DNA from: Candidatus Poseidonia sp.
GTDB taxonomy: Archaea > Thermoplasmatota > Poseidoniia > Poseidoniales > Poseidoniaceae
Reading direction: 5' to 3'
DNA: 57,788 bases
NCBI GenBank assembly: GCA_016778305.1
Contig: JADHPT010000011.1
Location: forward strand, 1 to 57,788
Of the stretch, positions 15,114 through 56,165 are shown one piece after another; the first letter of the stretch is position 1; every line of letters starts with the position of its first letter. A program made the position numbers and the translations under genes. Below the pieces are notes generated by a model, which saw only the letters and a program-made list of their open reading frames with translations, did no database searches and had not been told where the DNA came from.

Positions 15114-17081
15114 ATGGCAATCGTCGCAAAAGTATGGATTGATGAAGACTGCATCACTTGTGATGCATGTGAAGATATCTGTCCCGAAGTGTTCAAAGTA
15201 ACTGATGAAACATCCCAAATTCTTGCCGCAGTTCGAACTGACGGAGCCTTTGACCGAAACGAAGGCGGTTCACCTCTGGTTGGCACCCTCGGTGCTGAAT
15301 TGGGAGATATCATTCTCGAGGCCGCCGAAGCCTGTCCTGTTGAAGTCATCAAATTTGAATTGGTTAGCGACGGAGCAGAAGTTGCGACGGTCGAAGCCGA
15401 AGCACCAGCCGCCGAAGCAGCGGTAGCTCCTGCTGCAGCAGTGGCTCCAGCCGCAGGCGTCTCCGATGCTCTGGCTTCTGTCTTTGCCGGTGACCGAAGT
15501 ATCAACATTCTCTTTGGTTCCCAAACTGGAAATGCTGCTGGACTCGCCGAGAAGACGGCGAAAATGGCAGAAAATTACGGATTGACTCCCAACATCGTAG
15601 ACATGGATGGACTTGACCCTGCTCGCCTCGCTTCCATGAAGCGCGTCATGATCATCACCTCCACGTGGGGTGAAGGTGAGATGCCCGACAATGCAGATGA
15701 GATGTGGAAAGCCATCAACGCTAACGGCCCTGGCCTCTCCGCTACACATTACTCAGTCTGCGCCATCGGCGACACCTCCTATGATGAATACTGCAAAGCA
15801 GGTCACGACTGGAACGACAAACTCTCGGCATTGGGCGGGCATCAAGCCCATCCGATTCAGGAATGTGACGTTGATTTTGAACCTGCTTGGCGCATTTGGG
15901 TCGAAGAAGCCCTCCCACGCCTCGCTTGCGTTGACGAATCTGGCACCTTGCAGCTTGAAATCCTCGAGGAGATGAAAGCCTACGGAGCCGGCGATGATGA
16001 GGATCTCGTGGAAGGGGACTTCTCTCCTGGTACCATTCAACGAGAAGAACTTACGATCACCTTGGAAATATTCCGCTACGCACCCGAAGCTGCTGAATCA
16101 GGTTGGGACACATTGACCTGCAACGTGCCAGGTCATGCAACCATCCAAGATTTGCTTCTCACCATGCAACGTGATGTTGACGGCAGCCTCGCTTTCCGTC
16201 GTGGCAACGGCGCAGGTACACCCACGACAGGTGTCCGTGTCAACGGACGGATTGTGCTGGCAGATGCCACCATGGTCGGAGACGTGATGGCAACATCCGG
16301 ACGTGTTCGTATTGAACCGCTTCCCGGCCACCCAGTCGTTCGTGACCTCATCGTTGATACCAGCCGATACGAGAGTCATCGCAGTCGTGCTGAACCTTGG
16401 ATGCGAACCGACCCCCGTGAAGGCGAACGCTTGCCTTCAGGAATGGCAATGGGTACGCTCGATGCTGCATCCGCTACGGCGCTCCATCAGGCCGGTGACG
16501 TTCAGTCCTTCCAACTCATTCAAGCCATGTCAGATGCTCTTGCTCATGACTCTCATTACGAAGGTCCAGGTGTCCACTTCCAACAATGGCTTCGTGTCCT
16601 TGACCCTCGTACCAGCGAACAACAACGCCGCTCTATCATGAGTTCACTTCAAGAAAAGGATGGCATTTGGTCTGAGGCAGATCACGCCAGCCTTATGCGC
16701 TACGGCGAAGATGGACGCCTTGCTGCACGAGGTCTCAATGAGGCACGCAGTGCACTGCTCAATCAAAACCGATACGCTGGCAAATCCGGTCGCCTCGTCA
16801 AGTGGTATGGCCGCAGTGTCAAGTGGTCGGGCAACGTCAACGAAACAACCCTTTACCGTCAAGTCCTCGGACCTCTCGGACTCGTCAGCAACGTGTTCAG
16901 CGGAGTATCGGCCCGTATGGCCCTTGCCTTCACCCGCAATGGCTCACCACCGATTCGCAGCCTCCAATCCCTTCTTCTACCACCTGCTGGCCTCGGCCGT
17001 ATTCCGAAGATGTTCAACTCAAAGGTTGATAATTATCACGAAGTAGTGAGTTTGTTCAACGAAATCGATCAGCGATTCTGA
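15114..17081 (+). CDS. Ferredoxin-flavodoxin-SdhB-like fusion lacking Sdh cluster cysteines
   Basis: A 655-residue three-part redox protein. Residues 1-85 are a 4Fe-4S ferredoxin (C13, C16, C19, C23, then C74 in EACPVEV). After an Ala-rich linker, residues 128-272 are flavodoxin-like, with the FMN phosphate loop SQTGNAAG and the flavin loops STWGEGEMPD and GDTSYDEYC. Residues 313-550 follow the succinate dehydrogenase/fumarate reductase iron-sulfur subunit: ITLEIFRYAPE, DGSLAFRR, VNGRIVLAD, IEPLPGHPVVRDLIVD, GPGVHFQQWLRVLDPR, EKDGIWS. Where SdhB has the 2Fe-2S motif CxxxxCxxC and LAC, this protein has GNGAGTPTTG and LAD, and the C-terminal 3Fe-4S/4Fe-4S cysteines are also gone. The last 100 residues are unrecognised. 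It is followed after 6 nt by the HdrB-like gene. The partner dehydrogenase is unknown. Confidence 0.8.
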   Translation: MAIVAKVWIDEDCITCDACEDICPEVFKVTDETSQILAAVRTDGAFDRNEGGSPLVGTLGAELGDIILEAAEACPVEVIKFELVSDGAEVATVEAEAPAAEAAVAPAAAVAPAAGVSDALASVFAGDRSINILFGSQTGNAAGLAEKTAKMAENYGLTPNIVDMDGLDPARLASMKRVMIITSTWGEGEMPDNADEMWKAINANGPGLSATHYSVCAIGDTSYDEYCKAGHDWNDKLSALGGHQAHPIQECDVDFEPAWRIWVEEALPRLACVDESGTLQLEILEEMKAYGAGDDEDLVEGDFSPGTIQREELTITLEIFRYAPEAAESGWDTLTCNVPGHATIQDLLLTMQRDVDGSLAFRRGNGAGTPTTGVRVNGRIVLADATMVGDVMATSGRVRIEPLPGHPVVRDLIVDTSRYESHRSRAEPWMRTDPREGERLPSGMAMGTLDAASATALHQAGDVQSFQLIQAMSDALAHDSHYEGPGVHFQQWLRVLDPRTSEQQRRSIMSSLQEKDGIWSEADHASLMRYGEDGRLAARGLNEARSALLNQNRYAGKSGRLVKWYGRSVKWSGNVNETTLYRQVLGPLGLVSNVFSGVSARMALAFTRNGSPPIRSLQSLLLPPAGLGRIPKMFNSKVDNYHEVVSLFNEIDQRF

Positions 17082-17087
17082 GGTGAT

Positions 17088-17948
17088 ATGATGGCGAAAA
17101 TTGCTTACTATCCCGGAAATGTGGCCCGAGCAGGAGCCTCTGAGGTCGAGGACTGTATCCAACCCCTTTGCCGTGCGTTGAACATCCAACTCGTTGAAAT
17201 TCCTCGATCCAGCAGCGATGGTGGCAACGTAATCAAGCAAGCAACGCCCAAATTGCAAGACGCCCTCGTGGCCCGCAATCTCGCTCTTGCCGAAGAAAAA
17301 GGTCTTGACATCATGACCACGTGTGCAACCAGCCATGCCATCATGTGCAACACAGCTGAAGACATGAAGCGAGATCCTGTGTACGCAGCCACCATCAATA
17401 ATTTGGTTGAGCGCACATCAAAGATTGAGTACATGGGCGAAACGAAATCATGGCACCTCCTCCACTACCTGGTCGAGGAAATTGGACTTGATGCAGTTCG
17501 CAAGGCCGTCAAAAATCCTCTTAAAATGAAAATTGCGTCCTATTACGGCCCCGATATGCAACGCCAAGGCGCCTGTGCGGGCGACGACCCCTTCATGCCT
17601 ACCTACATGGAACAACTCATTGAGGCGCTTGGTGGAACTCCTGTAGAATACGATTCAAAGTGCCAAAGTGTTGGTTCCACCTCCATGCTCACCCTTGAAG
17701 ATTCATCCTTGTCCATGACGGCCGCAGTCCTCTCAGACGCATTGGAATCAGGGGCTGAATTGGTGGTAAGTGCGTGCACCATCTCCCATATCAACCTCGA
17801 TTCATACCAGTCAAAAGCAGGACGGGTAACTGGAAAATCAACCTCAGTCCCCGTTTGTCATCTCTCCGAAGTCGTCGCATTCGCTCTTGGTTTCTACCCA
17901 GACCGCCTTGCTCAACTACGAACTCGAGTTCGTCTCATTGGCTCTTGA
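17088..17948 (+). CDS. HdrB/SdhE-like (CCG domain) protein with degenerate cysteine motifs
   Basis: A 286-residue protein following the two-domain plan of heterodisulfide reductase subunit B and SdhE: YYPG start, ARNLALAEEKGLD, KSWHLLHYLVEEIGLD, KIASYYG, DDPFMPTYMEQLIEALGGTPVEY, INLD. In normal members each domain carries a C...CC...CxxC set that binds a noncubane cluster. Here YPGC is YPGN (residue 11), the NCCG site is SSSDGG (41-46), the first CxxC is CATS (79-82), YYGC is YYGP, the second CCG reads CQSVG and the last CxxC is CTIS (230-233). Cluster binding as in HdrB is therefore unlikely. GAGGTGAT precedes the start, 6 nt after the fusion gene, so both are surely one operon. The 3' end overlaps hef by 14 nt. 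Confidence 0.8.
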   Translation: MMAKIAYYPGNVARAGASEVEDCIQPLCRALNIQLVEIPRSSSDGGNVIKQATPKLQDALVARNLALAEEKGLDIMTTCATSHAIMCNTAEDMKRDPVYAATINNLVERTSKIEYMGETKSWHLLHYLVEEIGLDAVRKAVKNPLKMKIASYYGPDMQRQGACAGDDPFMPTYMEQLIEALGGTPVEYDSKCQSVGSTSMLTLEDSSLSMTAAVLSDALESGAELVVSACTISHINLDSYQSKAGRVTGKSTSVPVCHLSEVVAFALGFYPDRLAQLRTRVRLIGS

Positions 17949-20559
17949 AGGGCTGATTCAAGGTATCAATGACCCGTTGTGCCAATGCTTCATCGCAACC
18001 GCTCACGGCGGCGAAGGTCTCCTTCGATGCCACGAGGATAGCACCCAAGTCAGGAGAAAAGTGCTGCAACACATCGAGGATGGCACTATTTTGTGTGTAT
18101 TGACGCACTGTGTGATGAAAGCAACGATGAAGATGTTCAATCATCGTGTCCATCCATGGGTGATCTGCTTCCGGGTCTGTCTCCATTTGCTCCAATTCTT
18201 GCGAAATAGCATCAAGGGCTGGTCGCCATTCCTTTTGTGAGGCCTGTTGTGTAGTGAGGTAGATATGCAATGATTCAAGCAAATCATGTTCTCGTTTTGC
18301 AGCGAGAGCAACGAAATGAGCACTTTCTTCGGCGTTCTTAGTCATCATCACTGGAATGCCGAGGTCAAGTGTGATGTGAGCTAATGCGCCAAGAACTGCG
18401 TTTGGGTGCAGGGCATACTGTTCATCTCCTCCGGTCTCAACAAGCAATAGTGGACGCGGAGCACTTGCTTTGAGTGCGTGGCATTGACTGAGAAGACGGC
18501 CATTTTTGATTGAAGCAAGGAGGTCACGCGACGTCTTTCGTTCAATGAGAACTCTTGAGGACAAACGAAGGTCACCGTGAGGCAACTGTGTTAGTTCTGT
18601 GTTGAAACCAAGGCCATGCAAGTATGCAGGTAAGGTTGAATTCACCTCTCGGTGATCGATCTGGATGGTCTTGTTCGCACCCTTCATTGTGTTCATGTCG
18701 GTCATTTCTTTTGATGCAGCATTCAGTACTGCCTGAATTTGAGTAGGGGGGAATGTGGCTAATTCCTTTGGAGGTTCAACTGAAGTCGACGGACTCTTTT
18801 TCGCGAAATGGTCCAAACCCATCTGTTCTTTTGGTCGTCGCTGCTCTGGGGTTAATGGAGCAGCAGTTCGGTGAACATTGGATGCTTTCCTTTTCTCATT
18901 CACCGGCGCTTGTTCTTGTTCTATAGAATTCGGATTGAGGCTAATTTCACGTTCGAGGAATTCTTTGGCAGACATTCTTTGGTTTGAATCAACAATTGAA
19001 AAATGAGCAAGTGCCTCATGATCAATCTCAAAGTATTCCTTGAAATTCCGTTGACGTACCATTTGTTTCATCAATCGATGCATATTTGATTCTTGTTGCT
19101 CTGATGCTCTTTGGACATAGACATCACGGGTACCTTGGGCGATCAGCACATGCACAGAACCAGCTCGTTGTCGCGCGGTTCTACCTCGCCGTTGGATGGC
19201 TCGAATTGCGCTTGGTACGGGCTCATAGAGAATCACCAGGTCTGCAGACGGCACGTCAAGTCCTTCCTCCCCCACCGATGTGGCCACGAGGACATTGATT
19301 TCTCCGCTTCGGAAGCGATTGAGTTGAGCCAATTGCTCTTTCTGGTTCATTCCTTTCTGATTTCCTCTGGAAGATTGGCCGATAAACGCATCAGCTTCAA
19401 CTCCGGGCAGGGCGTTGAGGTTGGCAACAATCTGATTGACGGTATCTCTGTATTCTGTGAAAATGAGAATCTTTCCTTCTGGCTTTTGTGTTAATTCGGC
19501 TTGAACCAGACGATCAACAACCTCAACTTTTGGATGCAATTCCCCGATGTCGTTGAGTGAAAGGCGCAGGGCGTGGATGACTGGCAAAGCGAGCATCCGA
19601 TTGGTTTTTCTTCCTTCACGCCCTTCATCCTCTGCTCGTTGCAAAAAGGAACGAGCCACTTCGGTTCCTTGAGATTTGAGCAGGTTTGTCAGCATGTGGA
19701 TACGTCGTAAGTCAGCAACCCGTCTGGCAGCATCGTACCCTCGAACATCCCGCTGAGCGATGGCACGGCTCGCTCTCAACTGCGCCTTCTCAATGTCTCC
19801 CGAAGCGATGAATTCCTTGGGTGGAAGGAATCCAAGTCGCTTGAGATGAGCGACTTCTTCCTCGAAATGCTGCTCGATGGGTTGAAGCAATGTCTTCAGT
19901 GCAGGAGGCAACTCCAGGCGGTGTTGATGCACTTCCATGTCAACGTCGTAAGGTGCAACCAAGGCTTCACTGCGCTTTGTAAGGTCAAGGTTGTGCGCGT
20001 TGAGGTTTGTCTTGACTTCAGAGATGTGACGAATGTTTGATCCAGGACTTGCCGTGGCAGCCAACACACGTCCATGTTCTCCTCTCGCCTGCGTATACAA
20101 CTTGCCAACCTGCGCATAGGCGTGATTTCCCGTTGCATGATGTGCTTCATCAACGATGAGTAAATCCACGATTGAAAGGTCCAAAAGTCCCTTCATGGCA
20201 TCGTTGCGAATGACTTGAGGTGTGGCGATAATGATGCGTCCTTTTTCCCACAAGGCCTCCCGTTTGGCCGGGGGAGTATCACCCGTGTAAGCAAGAATCA
20301 CTTCGTCGGGAAGGGCAAGCCGCTCCTGCGCCATACGTCGTTGTTGATCGACCAGGCCGGTTGTGGGAGCGATCAGAATGATCTTTCGAGCGCCTGTTCG
20401 CAAGTACTCGGCCATCGCCATCCATTCCACTGCGGTCTTACCAAACCCTGTTGGCATGACCATGAGAGTCGATGCGGATAGGGCCCGCTCGAGGGAACGA
20501 AGTTGGTACGCCCTTGCCTCCACGCCCTCATTGAGAAGAGGATGGTTAACGGTAGGCAT
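17935..20559 (-). CDS. hef: Hef helicase-nuclease (FANCM/XPF family)
   Basis: An 874-residue archaeal Hef that processes stalled replication forks and branched DNA. The N-terminal SF2 helicase has Walker A in MPTGFGKTA, the DEAH box VDEAHH, the motif TASPGS, a helical insert typical of the FANCM group, and C-terminal motifs VATSVGEEGLDVPSADLVI and QRRGRTAR. After a charged linker (about 540-640), the XPF-type nuclease has IDHRE, GDLRLSSR and the metal-site motif ERKTSRDLL. A helix-hairpin-helix segment closes the protein. Length and order match the family. It is alone on the minus strand, convergent with the HdrB-like gene and divergent from the ribosomal cluster. Confidence 0.93.
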   Translation of the reverse strand: MPTVNHPLLNEGVEARAYQLRSLERALSASTLMVMPTGFGKTAVEWMAMAEYLRTGARKIILIAPTTGLVDQQRRMAQERLALPDEVILAYTGDTPPAKREALWEKGRIIIATPQVIRNDAMKGLLDLSIVDLLIVDEAHHATGNHAYAQVGKLYTQARGEHGRVLAATASPGSNIRHISEVKTNLNAHNLDLTKRSEALVAPYDVDMEVHQHRLELPPALKTLLQPIEQHFEEEVAHLKRLGFLPPKEFIASGDIEKAQLRASRAIAQRDVRGYDAARRVADLRRIHMLTNLLKSQGTEVARSFLQRAEDEGREGRKTNRMLALPVIHALRLSLNDIGELHPKVEVVDRLVQAELTQKPEGKILIFTEYRDTVNQIVANLNALPGVEADAFIGQSSRGNQKGMNQKEQLAQLNRFRSGEINVLVATSVGEEGLDVPSADLVILYEPVPSAIRAIQRRGRTARQRAGSVHVLIAQGTRDVYVQRASEQQESNMHRLMKQMVRQRNFKEYFEIDHEALAHFSIVDSNQRMSAKEFLEREISLNPNSIEQEQAPVNEKRKASNVHRTAAPLTPEQRRPKEQMGLDHFAKKSPSTSVEPPKELATFPPTQIQAVLNAASKEMTDMNTMKGANKTIQIDHREVNSTLPAYLHGLGFNTELTQLPHGDLRLSSRVLIERKTSRDLLASIKNGRLLSQCHALKASAPRPLLLVETGGDEQYALHPNAVLGALAHITLDLGIPVMMTKNAEESAHFVALAAKREHDLLESLHIYLTTQQASQKEWRPALDAISQELEQMETDPEADHPWMDTMIEHLHRCFHHTVRQYTQNSAILDVLQHFSPDLGAILVASKETFAAVSGCDEALAQRVIDTLNQPFKSQ

Positions 20560-33159: not shown

Positions 33160-35094
33160 ATGAAACACAAACAAATTCCATGGGCGATTGCACTTACTGG
33201 TGCCCTCTATTACGGGTTGCTCATCTATTGGCAATCTGATGAACTCTCTTCAGGTTCAGGAGAAGCCTTTGATGCAGCAGTATTCGGCCTTGGTTTTTCA
33301 GTACTCTATCTTGGCTACTGCATGCTCTGTTTCCAGCGTGATCTTCCTCCTGGCTTGAAAGACATGCCCTTCGTTGGACGCTATGGGAAACTTACAGGTA
33401 TGCTCGCCTTTTCGGCGGTTGCTGTTTGGTACGTTCGTCCCAGTGCTTGGGGTGGTTATGATGAAGGCGTAGGTTTCTTCCTCGTTGGCATACTGCTCCT
33501 TGGATTTGGTGCTGCGGCCATTCTCACATGTTTTATGTGGAGTGGCGATCAAAGCAGCCGACTCTACGCATTGAGCCGTTTCGTCGACGTTTATCCAACC
33601 ATCACGAAGCCAGAACGACACGTTCGGTTTAACGAAAAGATGTGGACGACCACCTTCGTTCTCATCATCTACTTCGCCATGACCAACGTCATGCTCTTCG
33701 GACTCTCTGGACAAGCATTGGACTTGTTCAGTGGATTCCGATCCATCATGGCAGGTGCCTCAGGTACCATCATGCACTTGGGTATCGGTCCGATCGTTAC
33801 AGGTTCCATTATCATGCAATTATTTGCTGGTGCTAAGATCATTCGTCTTGACTTGAGCGATTCAGAAGACAAAGCCATGTACCAAGGTGTACAGAAACTT
33901 CTGGTTCTAATCATGATCCCAATTGAATCCATTCCACAGACTTACGGATTCCTTGACCCCAGTGAATGGCTCATCGATGCCTACGGACTGGGATGGGCAA
34001 ACTTTGTTATTGTCGCCCAGCTCTTTGCGGGTTCGTACCTCGTGTTCCTGCTTGACGAACTGGTTAGCAAATGGGGTATTGGTTCTGGTATTTCGCTGTT
34101 CATTGCAGCCGGTGTTGCACAATCAACCTTCGTTGGAACGCTTTCCCCGCTTGCTACCACCACAGGAGTTCCTTACTCCATTCAGAACCCCCCTTCTGGT
34201 ACCTTACCGATGATTTTCTACATGTTCCGTCAATCATCAAATTATGAGATGATACAGGCGAACGGCTTCGAAGTCATGTTGCTGACGCACGTGAATCCGG
34301 TAGCAGCCTTGGTTTCATCGATCATCGTGTTCCTCGTCGTGGCCTATGCTGAATCGAGCAAGTTGGAACTTCCACTGACTCACGGTAAAGTCCGTGGTCA
34401 CCGCGGTAAGTACCCGATTCGACTGGTTTACGCATCGAACATTCCAGTTATTTTGATGGCTGCTCTTCTGGCCAACATCAACATGTTCACCTTGCTCTTT
34501 TGGAGCCATCCAACCCTAAGTCAAACACCAATCTTAGGTCAGAACGGCTGGGCATCAGCCTCCGCACTGATTGGAACCTATGAGCCGGGCCAAACGACTG
34601 CTTCAGGTGGTTTCGCATGGTATGCGAGTATGGTTAACGGCGTGAATGACTGGCTGATTCCATTGCTGAATCAGCAGGGTGACGCCTTCGGCCATTCGCT
34701 CACCCAAATCATGGTTCACGTGGTGTTCTACGTAGCGCTGATGACCGTTGGTTCGATGGTCTTCGCAAAGTTCTGGATTGACACCACGAACATGGGTACC
34801 AAGGACGTGGCAAAGCAGATTGAACGGACGGGTATGCAAATACCTGGGTTCAGAAAGAATCCTAAGGTTTTGGAAAAGATCCTTGAGAATTACATTCCTC
34901 CAGTCACATACTTCTCTGGAGCCTTCGTAGGATTGCTCGCCGCAGGTGCAGACCTGCTCGGTACGGTTGGAAACGCAACGGGTACGGGGCTCTTGCTGGC
35001 TGTTGGTATCATTTTACGTACCTATGAGCAGATCCAGAAGGAGCAGGCCATGGAAATGCATCCGATGATCCGTCAGTTCTTCGGTGCCGACTAA
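33160..35094 (+). CDS. secY: Protein translocase subunit SecY with extra N-terminal helices
   Basis: 644 residues against about 430-490 for normal archaeal SecY. The family core begins near residue 135 (PTITKPERHVRFNEKMWTTT) and holds the plug region, GPIVTGSIIMQLFAGA, DELVSKWGIGSGISLFIAAGV and the cytosolic loops that dock ribosomes (KLELPLTHGKVRGHRGKYPI). The preceding 130 residues form about four hydrophobic segments (roughly 6-24, 38-58, 78-92, 103-126). This extension is not part of standard SecY. There is also an enlarged region near residues 290-350. It is the last gene of the spc part of the cluster. Confidence 0.93.
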   Translation: MKHKQIPWAIALTGALYYGLLIYWQSDELSSGSGEAFDAAVFGLGFSVLYLGYCMLCFQRDLPPGLKDMPFVGRYGKLTGMLAFSAVAVWYVRPSAWGGYDEGVGFFLVGILLLGFGAAAILTCFMWSGDQSSRLYALSRFVDVYPTITKPERHVRFNEKMWTTTFVLIIYFAMTNVMLFGLSGQALDLFSGFRSIMAGASGTIMHLGIGPIVTGSIIMQLFAGAKIIRLDLSDSEDKAMYQGVQKLLVLIMIPIESIPQTYGFLDPSEWLIDAYGLGWANFVIVAQLFAGSYLVFLLDELVSKWGIGSGISLFIAAGVAQSTFVGTLSPLATTTGVPYSIQNPPSGTLPMIFYMFRQSSNYEMIQANGFEVMLLTHVNPVAALVSSIIVFLVVAYAESSKLELPLTHGKVRGHRGKYPIRLVYASNIPVILMAALLANINMFTLLFWSHPTLSQTPILGQNGWASASALIGTYEPGQTTASGGFAWYASMVNGVNDWLIPLLNQQGDAFGHSLTQIMVHVVFYVALMTVGSMVFAKFWIDTTNMGTKDVAKQIERTGMQIPGFRKNPKVLEKILENYIPPVTYFSGAFVGLLAAGADLLGTVGNATGTGLLLAVGIILRTYEQIQKEQAMEMHPMIRQFFGAD

Positions 35095-54401: not shown

Positions 54402-56165
54402 TCAGTAATCCGAATATGCGAGGAAGCGCATGTAGGTGCCGTAGATGGTTACAGAGACGCCCAATGATTCTTCATTGAAGCGGTCCATGGTGTCGAGATA
54501 GGTGTGATATTCCCAACTGCCGCTGCCATAACAAACAATGGCACGTCCTCGTTCTCCCTCACCCAAGTCATAGACGAAGGGGCCGTGGTCTGAATTGTAC
54601 GGCATGCCGTCCGAAGCACCCTGAGCACCTTGGTAGGTCGCCAGTTGGATGTCGTAACGGTCGGCAACCTCGTCACGTTCGTTCTTGTACAACTCCGTGA
54701 TGCGGCTGATGTGCTCCATGTCCTCGGGTGTATTTCCAAAGAGGCGAAGGCTGTTGCCTCGGTTGGAGAAATCGGCGTCAACGTGGTTCATGTCAAGGTT
54801 GATGTAAAGGCGAAGGTTGTCCTTCAAACTGTTCTGGAAGGCTTGCACGTAGGCACGGCTACCGTAGAGTCCCTCTTCTTCACCACCCCACGTACAGAAC
54901 CGGAGGGTGCGTTCGGGCTTGCCCGTTTCGTTGACAACCTCGCTGATTTGACGGCCCATCTCAAGCACGCTGGCTGTACCTGATGTATCGTCAATCGCCC
55001 CCTGACCGTGGTAAACGGTATCGTGGTGGCCACCAACGATGACAACTTCTGAAGTGCGTCCCTTAATCTCCCCACAGGGCACGTAGATGGTCCGCTCCTG
55101 ATCGTTGGTCACGTCGATGATCATCTCCAACACACCGGTCGGTCCGGTGGCGTTGAAGATGGCCTGTTCAAGAATTTCACCAGCATCTTTGGACATGGCG
55201 ATGAAGGGAATGTCACTCGGAATCGTGCCGCCGTTTGCTTCCTTTACGGCGTCAATACCGGTTCCCTTGAAAATCGGTACGCAATCATTGCCTTCGATTT
55301 TGCCACAATTGTAATCCTTGTTGACTCGAATCAAACCGGCCAATTGGTTCTCAGCGGCCTTTGAGAAGAATTCAGTATTGCCTGTCTTTGTGCCGCTGTT
55401 GATGACGTAACCGACCGTACCGCCTGCACTGGCCCAGAGGCCGTCGTCACTGCCGTTGCCGAGATAGGTAAGCGGCACGTTTTGCTGGAAGGTGTACTCA
55501 GACTGGCCTGAGAATCCTTGAATCACATAATCGACGCGATGTTGGAATGAAATGAAATTCGAGAATTGAGAACCAGGTCCCTCACAAGGACTCAATCCCC
55601 CAAGGCCACTCTGCACGCAAATCCTGAGACTCGGTTCCGAGTTGACGTGGTGCATAGGTACCTGGTAGGAATGCAAGGTAGTATCCATCCCCATGGCGGC
55701 AAATTGAGATTCAATGTAGGTCGAGACGTTGGCTTCTTCGGTGGTTCCGCTCATGCGTCCTTCCCAATCAGCGTGTCCGAAGCCGACCAATTCTTCAGCA
55801 AAGGTGCGGGTTTGACTGGCATCGTAGTCGATGAGATCATATTCGTAATTTGGAGTGAATCCCAGCCATGTTGGTCGGAATACAAAGACGGCGGTTACCA
55901 TGATGATGACGACGCCAATTGCCGTCAATGCTTGTGGAGTAAGTATGTCCGTACTCCGCCACCAGGGTGTCTTATCTTCGTCTTCAGGGAAGAGTTCAGC
56001 CGTGGCGGGTGGCTCGTCTTCGAGACTGATGGTTGGCTGAAACTCTCTGTGGGCCAGCAGGCGTTCGATCAATTCCGCTTTTTTGCCGCTGACGGGAAGG
56101 CCGTGCACTGCTAACTCCTCTCGAAGTTCCTTGACGGTCAAAGGGATGGAGTTGGATTCACTCAT
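54402..56165 (-). CDS. Membrane-anchored M28 peptidase with SAP domain
   Basis: 587 residues. Residues 8-43 are a SAP motif (LTVKELREELAVHGLPVSGK, then KAELIERL). An acidic Pro-rich stretch and a membrane helix (ALTAIGVVIIMVTAVFVF, about 80-97) follow, so the peptidase faces outside while SAP stays in the cytosol. The M28 zinc aminopeptidase core has VVIVGGHHDTVYHGQGAIDD (first His and Asp), GGEEEGLYGSRAYVQ (Glu pair), INLDMNHVDAD and SDHGPFVYD (last His). A PA-like insert lies between about 215 and 330. It probably trims peptides released by secreted proteases such as the subtilisin-like protein at 4522. Confidence 0.9.
   Translation of the reverse strand: MSESNSIPLTVKELREELAVHGLPVSGKKAELIERLLAHREFQPTISLEDEPPATAELFPEDEDKTPWWRSTDILTPQALTAIGVVIIMVTAVFVFRPTWLGFTPNYEYDLIDYDASQTRTFAEELVGFGHADWEGRMSGTTEEANVSTYIESQFAAMGMDTTLHSYQVPMHHVNSEPSLRICVQSGLGGLSPCEGPGSQFSNFISFQHRVDYVIQGFSGQSEYTFQQNVPLTYLGNGSDDGLWASAGGTVGYVINSGTKTGNTEFFSKAAENQLAGLIRVNKDYNCGKIEGNDCVPIFKGTGIDAVKEANGGTIPSDIPFIAMSKDAGEILEQAIFNATGPTGVLEMIIDVTNDQERTIYVPCGEIKGRTSEVVIVGGHHDTVYHGQGAIDDTSGTASVLEMGRQISEVVNETGKPERTLRFCTWGGEEEGLYGSRAYVQAFQNSLKDNLRLYINLDMNHVDADFSNRGNSLRLFGNTPEDMEHISRITELYKNERDEVADRYDIQLATYQGAQGASDGMPYNSDHGPFVYDLGEGERGRAIVCYGSGSWEYHTYLDTMDRFNEESLGVSVTIYGTYMRFLAYSDY

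Follow-up and report, generated by a model that had tools for sequence, protein, structure and literature searches.

Respiratory complexes are usually seen as fixed chains of metal centres, so why would two subunits of such a complex be kept after their cluster sites had been dismantled? This question is raised by two adjoining genes of Candidatus Poseidonia sp. (order Poseidoniales; assembly GCA_016778305.1, contig JADHPT010000011.1), found in a stretch of 57,788 nucleotides that is called here, at its full length, the window (G000:C15, within a 1.9-Mb genome with a completeness of 94.4%). The first, named FUS, is an open reading frame (ORF) at positions 15114-17081 of the forward strand, encoding a ferredoxin–flavodoxin–SdhB-like fusion of 655 amino acids. 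The second, HDR, lies next to it at 17088-17948, on the same strand, and encodes an HdrB/SdhE-like partner of 286 amino acids. A first-pass annotation of the window had described this arrangement, which is confirmed by the ORFs and by family matches; it had also claimed that both proteins lost their iron-sulfur cysteines and that an old scaffold of succinate dehydrogenase (SDH) and heterodisulfide reductase now docks or serves other electron carriers. As judged from sequence comparison, the pair is the product of a real, order-wide, and selected conversion of type-E SdhB and SdhE to a nearly cluster-free scaffold with fused carriers, whose function is a matter of hypothesis.

The loss of ligands can be read from an alignment of 30 Poseidoniales rows with an outgroup of 15 type-E SdhB rows, all from outside the order, in which a ligand column was defined as one holding cysteine in at least 80% of the outgroup rows. 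Twelve such columns were found, with cysteine in 15/15 outgroup rows, and none of the 12 holds cysteine in the FUS of the window, so the earlier reading of replaced cluster cysteines stands. The 2Fe-2S domain (residues 316-419, window positions 16059-16370, + strand), which is recognized by Fer2_3 (E 2.2e-12) and has an SdhB-like predicted fold, reads N365, T369, T372, and D384 in place of its four cysteines. The second cluster domain (16371-16718, +) reads V463, F466, I469, S473, E521, H524, L527, and G531 in place of its eight. The same columns were then counted in 116 distinct FUS bodies obtained from 161 loci. Only six cells contain cysteine (three at position 372 and one each at 463, 466, and 524), never two in one row, and the order-wide search for the pair showed that the replaced residues are partly fixed, S473 and E521 being invariant (116/116).

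HdrB proteins carry two CCG cysteine motifs, which hold non-cubane clusters. The ten corresponding ligand columns contain cysteine in 18/18 outgroup rows, while the HDR of the window keeps two of them, C79 and C230. Its first CCG site (residues 6-82, 17103-17333, +) has changed from CCCCC to N11, S43, D44, C79, and S82, and its second (residues 150-233, 17535-17786, +) to P155, S194, V195, C230, and S233. Both sites are thus broken, as first annotated, although the cysteine then read in 'CQSVG' falls outside the ligand columns (the CC pair corresponds to S194-V195). The wider HDR sample comprised 115 rows from 114 genomes, the window and its own genome being counted separately and the gapped loci L024 and L162 being left out; it is non-random, consisting of the best-scoring loci and of loci picked for genus coverage among the 255 genomes with an HDR match. 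The second site is absent in all 115 rows, where the pattern is [PASTV]-S-[VAI]-C-[SA]. The first is lost in 94 rows (NSDCS 48, NSCCT 40, NSDCA 4, NGDCA 2) and kept in 21 (CCCCC 20, CCCSC 1, the latter with one substitution). The claim that both proteins have lost their cysteines therefore holds for the window and for 94 rows, but not for the other 21; the observation that would have overturned it, close relatives retaining the cysteines, is thus made in part only. Since these 21 rows keep the first site, the second is lost everywhere, and at most one of the 12 cysteines occurs in any of the 116 FUS bodies, the pattern points to stepwise ligand loss and not to a local error.

The similarity of both proteins to cluster-bearing families is, by these profile scores, far above chance. 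SdhB families match FUS up to about residue 520 (PRK12576 E 1.4e-19; dhsB E 6.9e-16), and HDR is matched by the HdrB family TIGR03288 (E 6.6e-37), by the SdhE of 8-methylmenaquinol:fumarate reductase (MFR; E 3.5e-32), and by the solved HdrB structure 8rvv_B (E 1.3e-29). Chance resemblance to SdhB and HdrB was rejected on the strength of these family matches and of the homologue matches that follow. Within the class but outside the order, family f3 gave no HDR match in seven genomes and a weak FUS match in three of the seven (E 4e-5 to 7e-5). Beyond the class, the best FUS matches fall in families f26, f22, f7, and f6, and the best HDR matches in f6, then f27. Eighteen outside loci were retrieved, all with an HDR relative; the 15 that have an SdhB match carry the HDR relative and an SdhA alongside, arranged as A-B-E at 14 loci and as B-E-A at L250.

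These loci hold the closest relatives identified beyond the order, type-E SdhB and SdhE with every cysteine, and FUS and HDR are therefore read as a converted complex-II pair; by alignment, FUS 316-655 with HDR is a type-E SdhB/SdhE pair. This makes the earlier claim of descent from an Sdh/Hdr scaffold more exact. The likeness to the type-E SdhABE or fumarate reductase of Thermoplasmatota (loci L242-L255 and L259) and to MFR includes the succession of a B gene and an E gene and the homology of both subunits, down to the SdhB C-terminal extension. In loci L245, L244, L246, and L247, this extension aligns with the FUS tail (residues 561-655, 16794-17078, +), LNETKLARETLG... of L245 lying opposite VNETTLYRQVLGP... 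of FUS; in loci L248-L250 the stretch matching the tail is mostly missing. The window differs from type-E enzymes in lacking 12/12 SdhB and 8/10 SdhE ligands, in having no SdhA beside the pair (nor is there one in the 19 loci compared), and in having a ferredoxin and a flavodoxin domain joined to the N-terminus of its SdhB part. HdrB of heterodisulfide reductase provides the best solved relatives of HDR by sequence and by fold, but the HDR of the window has no intact CCG site and its neighbours are non-redox genes. The working SDH of the genome is encoded separately (SdhA of 618 and SdhB of 255 amino acids, families PRK07803 and PRK12386); decay of the only SDH of the genome was rejected, intact SdhA and SdhB being encoded elsewhere. 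A 270-amino-acid protein with hydrophobic stretches lies upstream of these intact genes (L099:4937-5749, G000:C20), with no NCBIfam match up to E 0.001.

The pair is widespread. FUS is matched in 271/292 genomes of the order and 22/22 genera, HDR in 255/292 genomes and 21/22 genera, and both genes occur in 35/35 genomes with a completeness of at least 90% and a contamination of at most 5%. The gene order thermosome, FUS, HDR, and opposed helicase is kept in 19/19 loci, with L3 beyond where the stretch extends. In the window this helicase, which has an ERCC4 nuclease domain, occupies 17935-20559 on the reverse strand and overlaps the end of HDR by 14 bases. Compared with one neighbour, G041, at synonymous distances near saturation, FUS has a nonsynonymous rate (dN) of 0.033 and a synonymous rate (dS) of 1.17, and HDR a dN of 0.018 and a dS of 1.83. 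These values and the order-wide conservation indicate that the pair is held by strong selection across the order, and they bear out the earlier remark that the surrounding family sequence is kept without general decay. Two paralogues per genome, considered as a source of the two HDR states, were unsupported: 250/255 matching genomes have a single HDR match and five have two (G050, G059, G166, G172, and G255), those of G059 lying on two contigs with partial coverage.

The two HDR states have a history that FUS shares only in part. In a quick tree rooted on 10 outgroup rows, 62 cluster-free HDR rows form one clade (support 99), which persists when the ligand columns are removed (98), and 19 first-site rows, drawn from both families, form a basal grade. 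Five changes of HDR cluster state are required on the tree of the FUS body (residues 310-560) and one on that of the tail (561-655), the latter being weakly supported (65) over 95 columns. The genus g5 includes both states: the identity between its cluster-free genome G109 and G198, which keeps the first site, is 68-88% over FUS 281-560 and 35-65% over the tail and HDR, and the tail and HDR of G109 are 85-92% identical to those of G006, from another genus. Topology tests on 39 chosen rows, with quick trees, gave opposite answers for the two regions. The FUS body unites g5 in one clade (98) and rejects a grouping of the cluster-free rows (approximately unbiased (AU) test, p 2.7e-119); HDR unites the cluster-free rows in one clade (99) and rejects a grouping of g5 (p-AU 9.5e-9). 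Because these tests conflict and the g5 identities switch, the FUS tail and HDR are taken, from the alignments, to have moved as one unit in g5, the breakpoint lying close to residue 560-570 of FUS. A tail motif, [YF]R[QTS] (YRQ-type), occurs in 94/94 cluster-free and 0/21 first-site rows, and thus tracks the cluster state in 115/115, an association that reflects largely one shared history rather than 115 independent events. This association points to a putative contact between the tail and HDR.

At its N-terminus, FUS has a single-cluster 4Fe-4S ferredoxin domain (residues 9-80, 15138-15353, +; Fer4_13 E 1.4e-9), in which the ligand pattern CxxCxxC...CP can be read, followed by a flavodoxin/FMN (flavin mononucleotide) domain (residues 132-254, 15507-15875, +). 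The latter is matched by its family profile over the domain (Flavodoxin_1 E 1e-25), its cofactor content being predicted, and is most similar to the FMN domain of CysJ (cysJ E 9.4e-35 over residues 127-271); FUS differs from CysJ-type diflavin reductases in that no FAD- or NADPH-binding domain is found among its Pfam matches. That both carriers are fused on, as had been annotated, is therefore well founded. Their identity varies among lineages. Judged by their motifs, 21/21 first-site rows start with a ferredoxin domain; of the 94 cluster-free rows, 55 have a ferredoxin in this place and 26 a second flavodoxin, the domain being unassigned in 13. Pfam searches of two of the 26 double-flavodoxin forms gave a pair of Flavodoxin_1 matches in each, and no match to a 4Fe-4S family up to E 1. 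The FUS body tree, with its 102 rows, requires a minimum of eight ferredoxin/flavodoxin changes, counted without direction. Flavodoxin substitutes for ferredoxin under iron limitation in many organisms, and by this analogy the N-terminal slot is best read as that of a low-potential one-electron carrier. The double-flavodoxin form with a cluster-free HDR has, by its residues, no recognized iron-sulfur ligand set.

A joint structure prediction of FUS and HDR is consistent with this ancestry: the model (predicted local distance difference test (pLDDT) score 81.4; predicted template modelling (pTM) score 0.81) matches SdhB and HdrB structures. Foldseek also aligns a single 498-residue chain of Helicobacter pylori, PDB 3kwl, over 642 columns of the model (TMt 0.70), at 12% identity and a root-mean-square deviation of 7.8; this comparison is by fold alone and serves as a lead only. 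The aligned columns cover both the SdhB-like and HdrB-like parts; 3kwl may be a single-chain relative, and its function is given as unknown in the one paper found.

A third SdhA-like gene in the genome offers a candidate partner. It encodes 544 amino acids at G000:C14:5513-7144 (L101:3014-4648), is matched by FAD_binding_2 (E 3e-28) and Succ_DH_flav_C (E 1e-14), and has a counterpart at E 1e-54 or better in 175/193 genomes. Its predicted structure (pLDDT 92.6) matches FrdA/SdhA structures over its length. The positions of the succinate site and of the FAD-linking His45 are given in the E. coli numbering. E255, R399, and His45 are missing from 50/50 rows of this homologue; T254 is kept in none (Ser in three), R286 in 2/50, and H242 in many. 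E255, R286, H354, and R399 are all kept in 15 type-E SdhA rows and in the genome's own SdhA and NadB, the H354 column being less securely aligned in the 50 homologue rows. We infer that this protein may work with FUS and HDR.

Overall, the reading preferred here, tentatively and at somewhat below even chances, is that of a complex-II scaffold stripped of its clusters, to which one-electron carriers are tethered. FUS and HDR would still pair as the B-E dimer of their ancestor, the FUS tail lying close to the former first-cluster site of HDR; such a B-E unit is suggested by the joint recombination of tail and HDR and by a tail motif that tracks the cluster state. The fixed cluster chain would no longer conduct, and electrons would instead be carried by the tethered ferredoxin and FMN domains, which would swing from one partner to another, the partners being docked on the SDH-like scaffold. 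The SdhA homologue without succinate-site residues may be one of these partners, and the respiratory chain is a possible electron sink. A search for a NuoF-type NADH-input protein (PF01512) was positive in 11/14 control genomes and found none in this genome, complex I itself not being searched; this would leave room for ferredoxin or flavodoxin input to respiration. The repeated exchange of ferredoxin and flavodoxin, together with an SdhA homologue that lacks succinate-site residues, lends weight to the earlier suggestion of a scaffold that may dock or serve other electron carriers.

Several observations weigh against this reading. Cluster absence in vivo is deduced solely from ligand residues, the end of the FUS tail has a pLDDT below 50, and the fused ferredoxin and flavodoxin could act alone, with the scaffold a mere anchor. 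The conserved neighbours (thermosome, helicase, and ribosomal genes, 19/19 loci) are uninformative about redox function, and genus g22 gave no HDR match, its genomes G069 and G183 being negative in the repeat search too, even though G183 has FUS. The SdhA homologue is unlinked to FUS-HDR and stands outside type E in the tree as one clade (100/100) on a long branch; constraining it with type E gives an AU p of 0.097, neither rejected nor shown. Its match is weak in 18/193 genomes (best E 4e-14 to 7e-26), including G013, which is 94% complete, and these weak matches are probably canonical SdhA or NadB. No tie of the homologue to the FUS-HDR exchange was seen, as g5 genomes of both HDR states (G014, G033, G109, and G148) carry copies 48-51% identical to that of the window genome. 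PMC6336850 states that the group has canonical complexes I and II, to be set against the possible input to respiration.

A wider version of the tethered-carrier reading is rather doubtful. The whole of complex II (A, B, and E) would have been converted stepwise into an iron-sparing machine: A without succinate-site residues, B without cluster sites, E losing its sites one and then the other, and ferredoxin often swapped for a second flavodoxin, giving flavin-only conduction, and recombination would have carried the module of FUS tail and HDR from lineage to lineage. The zinc of class E enzymes may belong to the N-terminal CCG site. If this is true, the first site, which 21 rows retain, might have a structural role, and no redox cluster would be left in the SDH part of any sampled row. 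That class E enzymes coordinate Zn2+ and a 4Fe-4S cluster is stated in PMC10238741.

Among the alternatives, the one that survives best, though unlikely, would take the scaffold out of electron transfer altogether, as a structural, regulatory, or assembly factor (e.g., a chaperone for the separate intact SDH), with ferredoxin and flavodoxin acting independently. The intact SdhA and SdhB elsewhere in the genome, the 50/50 homologue rows without E255 and R399, and the absence of redox gene neighbours at 19/19 loci all agree with it, but the carrier stays fused despite its repeated exchange, which suggests that its attachment to the scaffold is important. It is improbable that HDR is a thiol enzyme, in which C79 and C230, which occupy corresponding positions in the two CCG repeats, would act as a redox-active thiol/disulfide that the FMN domain feeds. 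C230 is present in 115/115 and C79 in 114/115 rows, each as the first cysteine of the CxxC of its repeat; however, both are also kept where the first CCG site is intact and may simply be structural. Still less credible is a cluster or other metal bound at the old sites through non-cysteine ligands (S, D, E, H, or N): some replacements are possible ligands (the fixed S473 and E521, D384 in 68/116, and H524 in 24/116 FUS bodies), but those at 463, 469, and 527 are nearly all hydrophobic (position 466 is not mainly so), leaving few possible ligands per site. Ordinary decay or an assembly error is refuted by the order-wide conservation, the open frames, and a dN far below dS (one neighbour compared).

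The tethered-carrier reading, if right, would show a route for reusing an old enzyme scaffold with little iron, and it bears on electron movement in a common group of marine archaea (marine group II). Because living lineages still include an intermediate state, each step of the path is open to testing. A further implication is that annotating genes of this kind as 'succinate dehydrogenase' can be misleading. The accessible part of the open-licence literature does not describe the pair as cluster-free, which is weak evidence, and the fusion type of FUS is not named in the available passages of an archaeal fusion survey (PMC11237513).

Two further genes of the window have unusual architectures. 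A SecY of 644 amino acids is encoded at 33160-35094 (+), in which the Plug/SecY match starts at residue 169 and is preceded by about 165 residues with several hydrophobic stretches, an extension that depends on the predicted start codon. At 54402-56165 (-), a protein of 587 amino acids combines a SAP domain (residues 9-40), usually a DNA-binding domain, with a hydrophobic stretch and, after it, an M28 peptidase.

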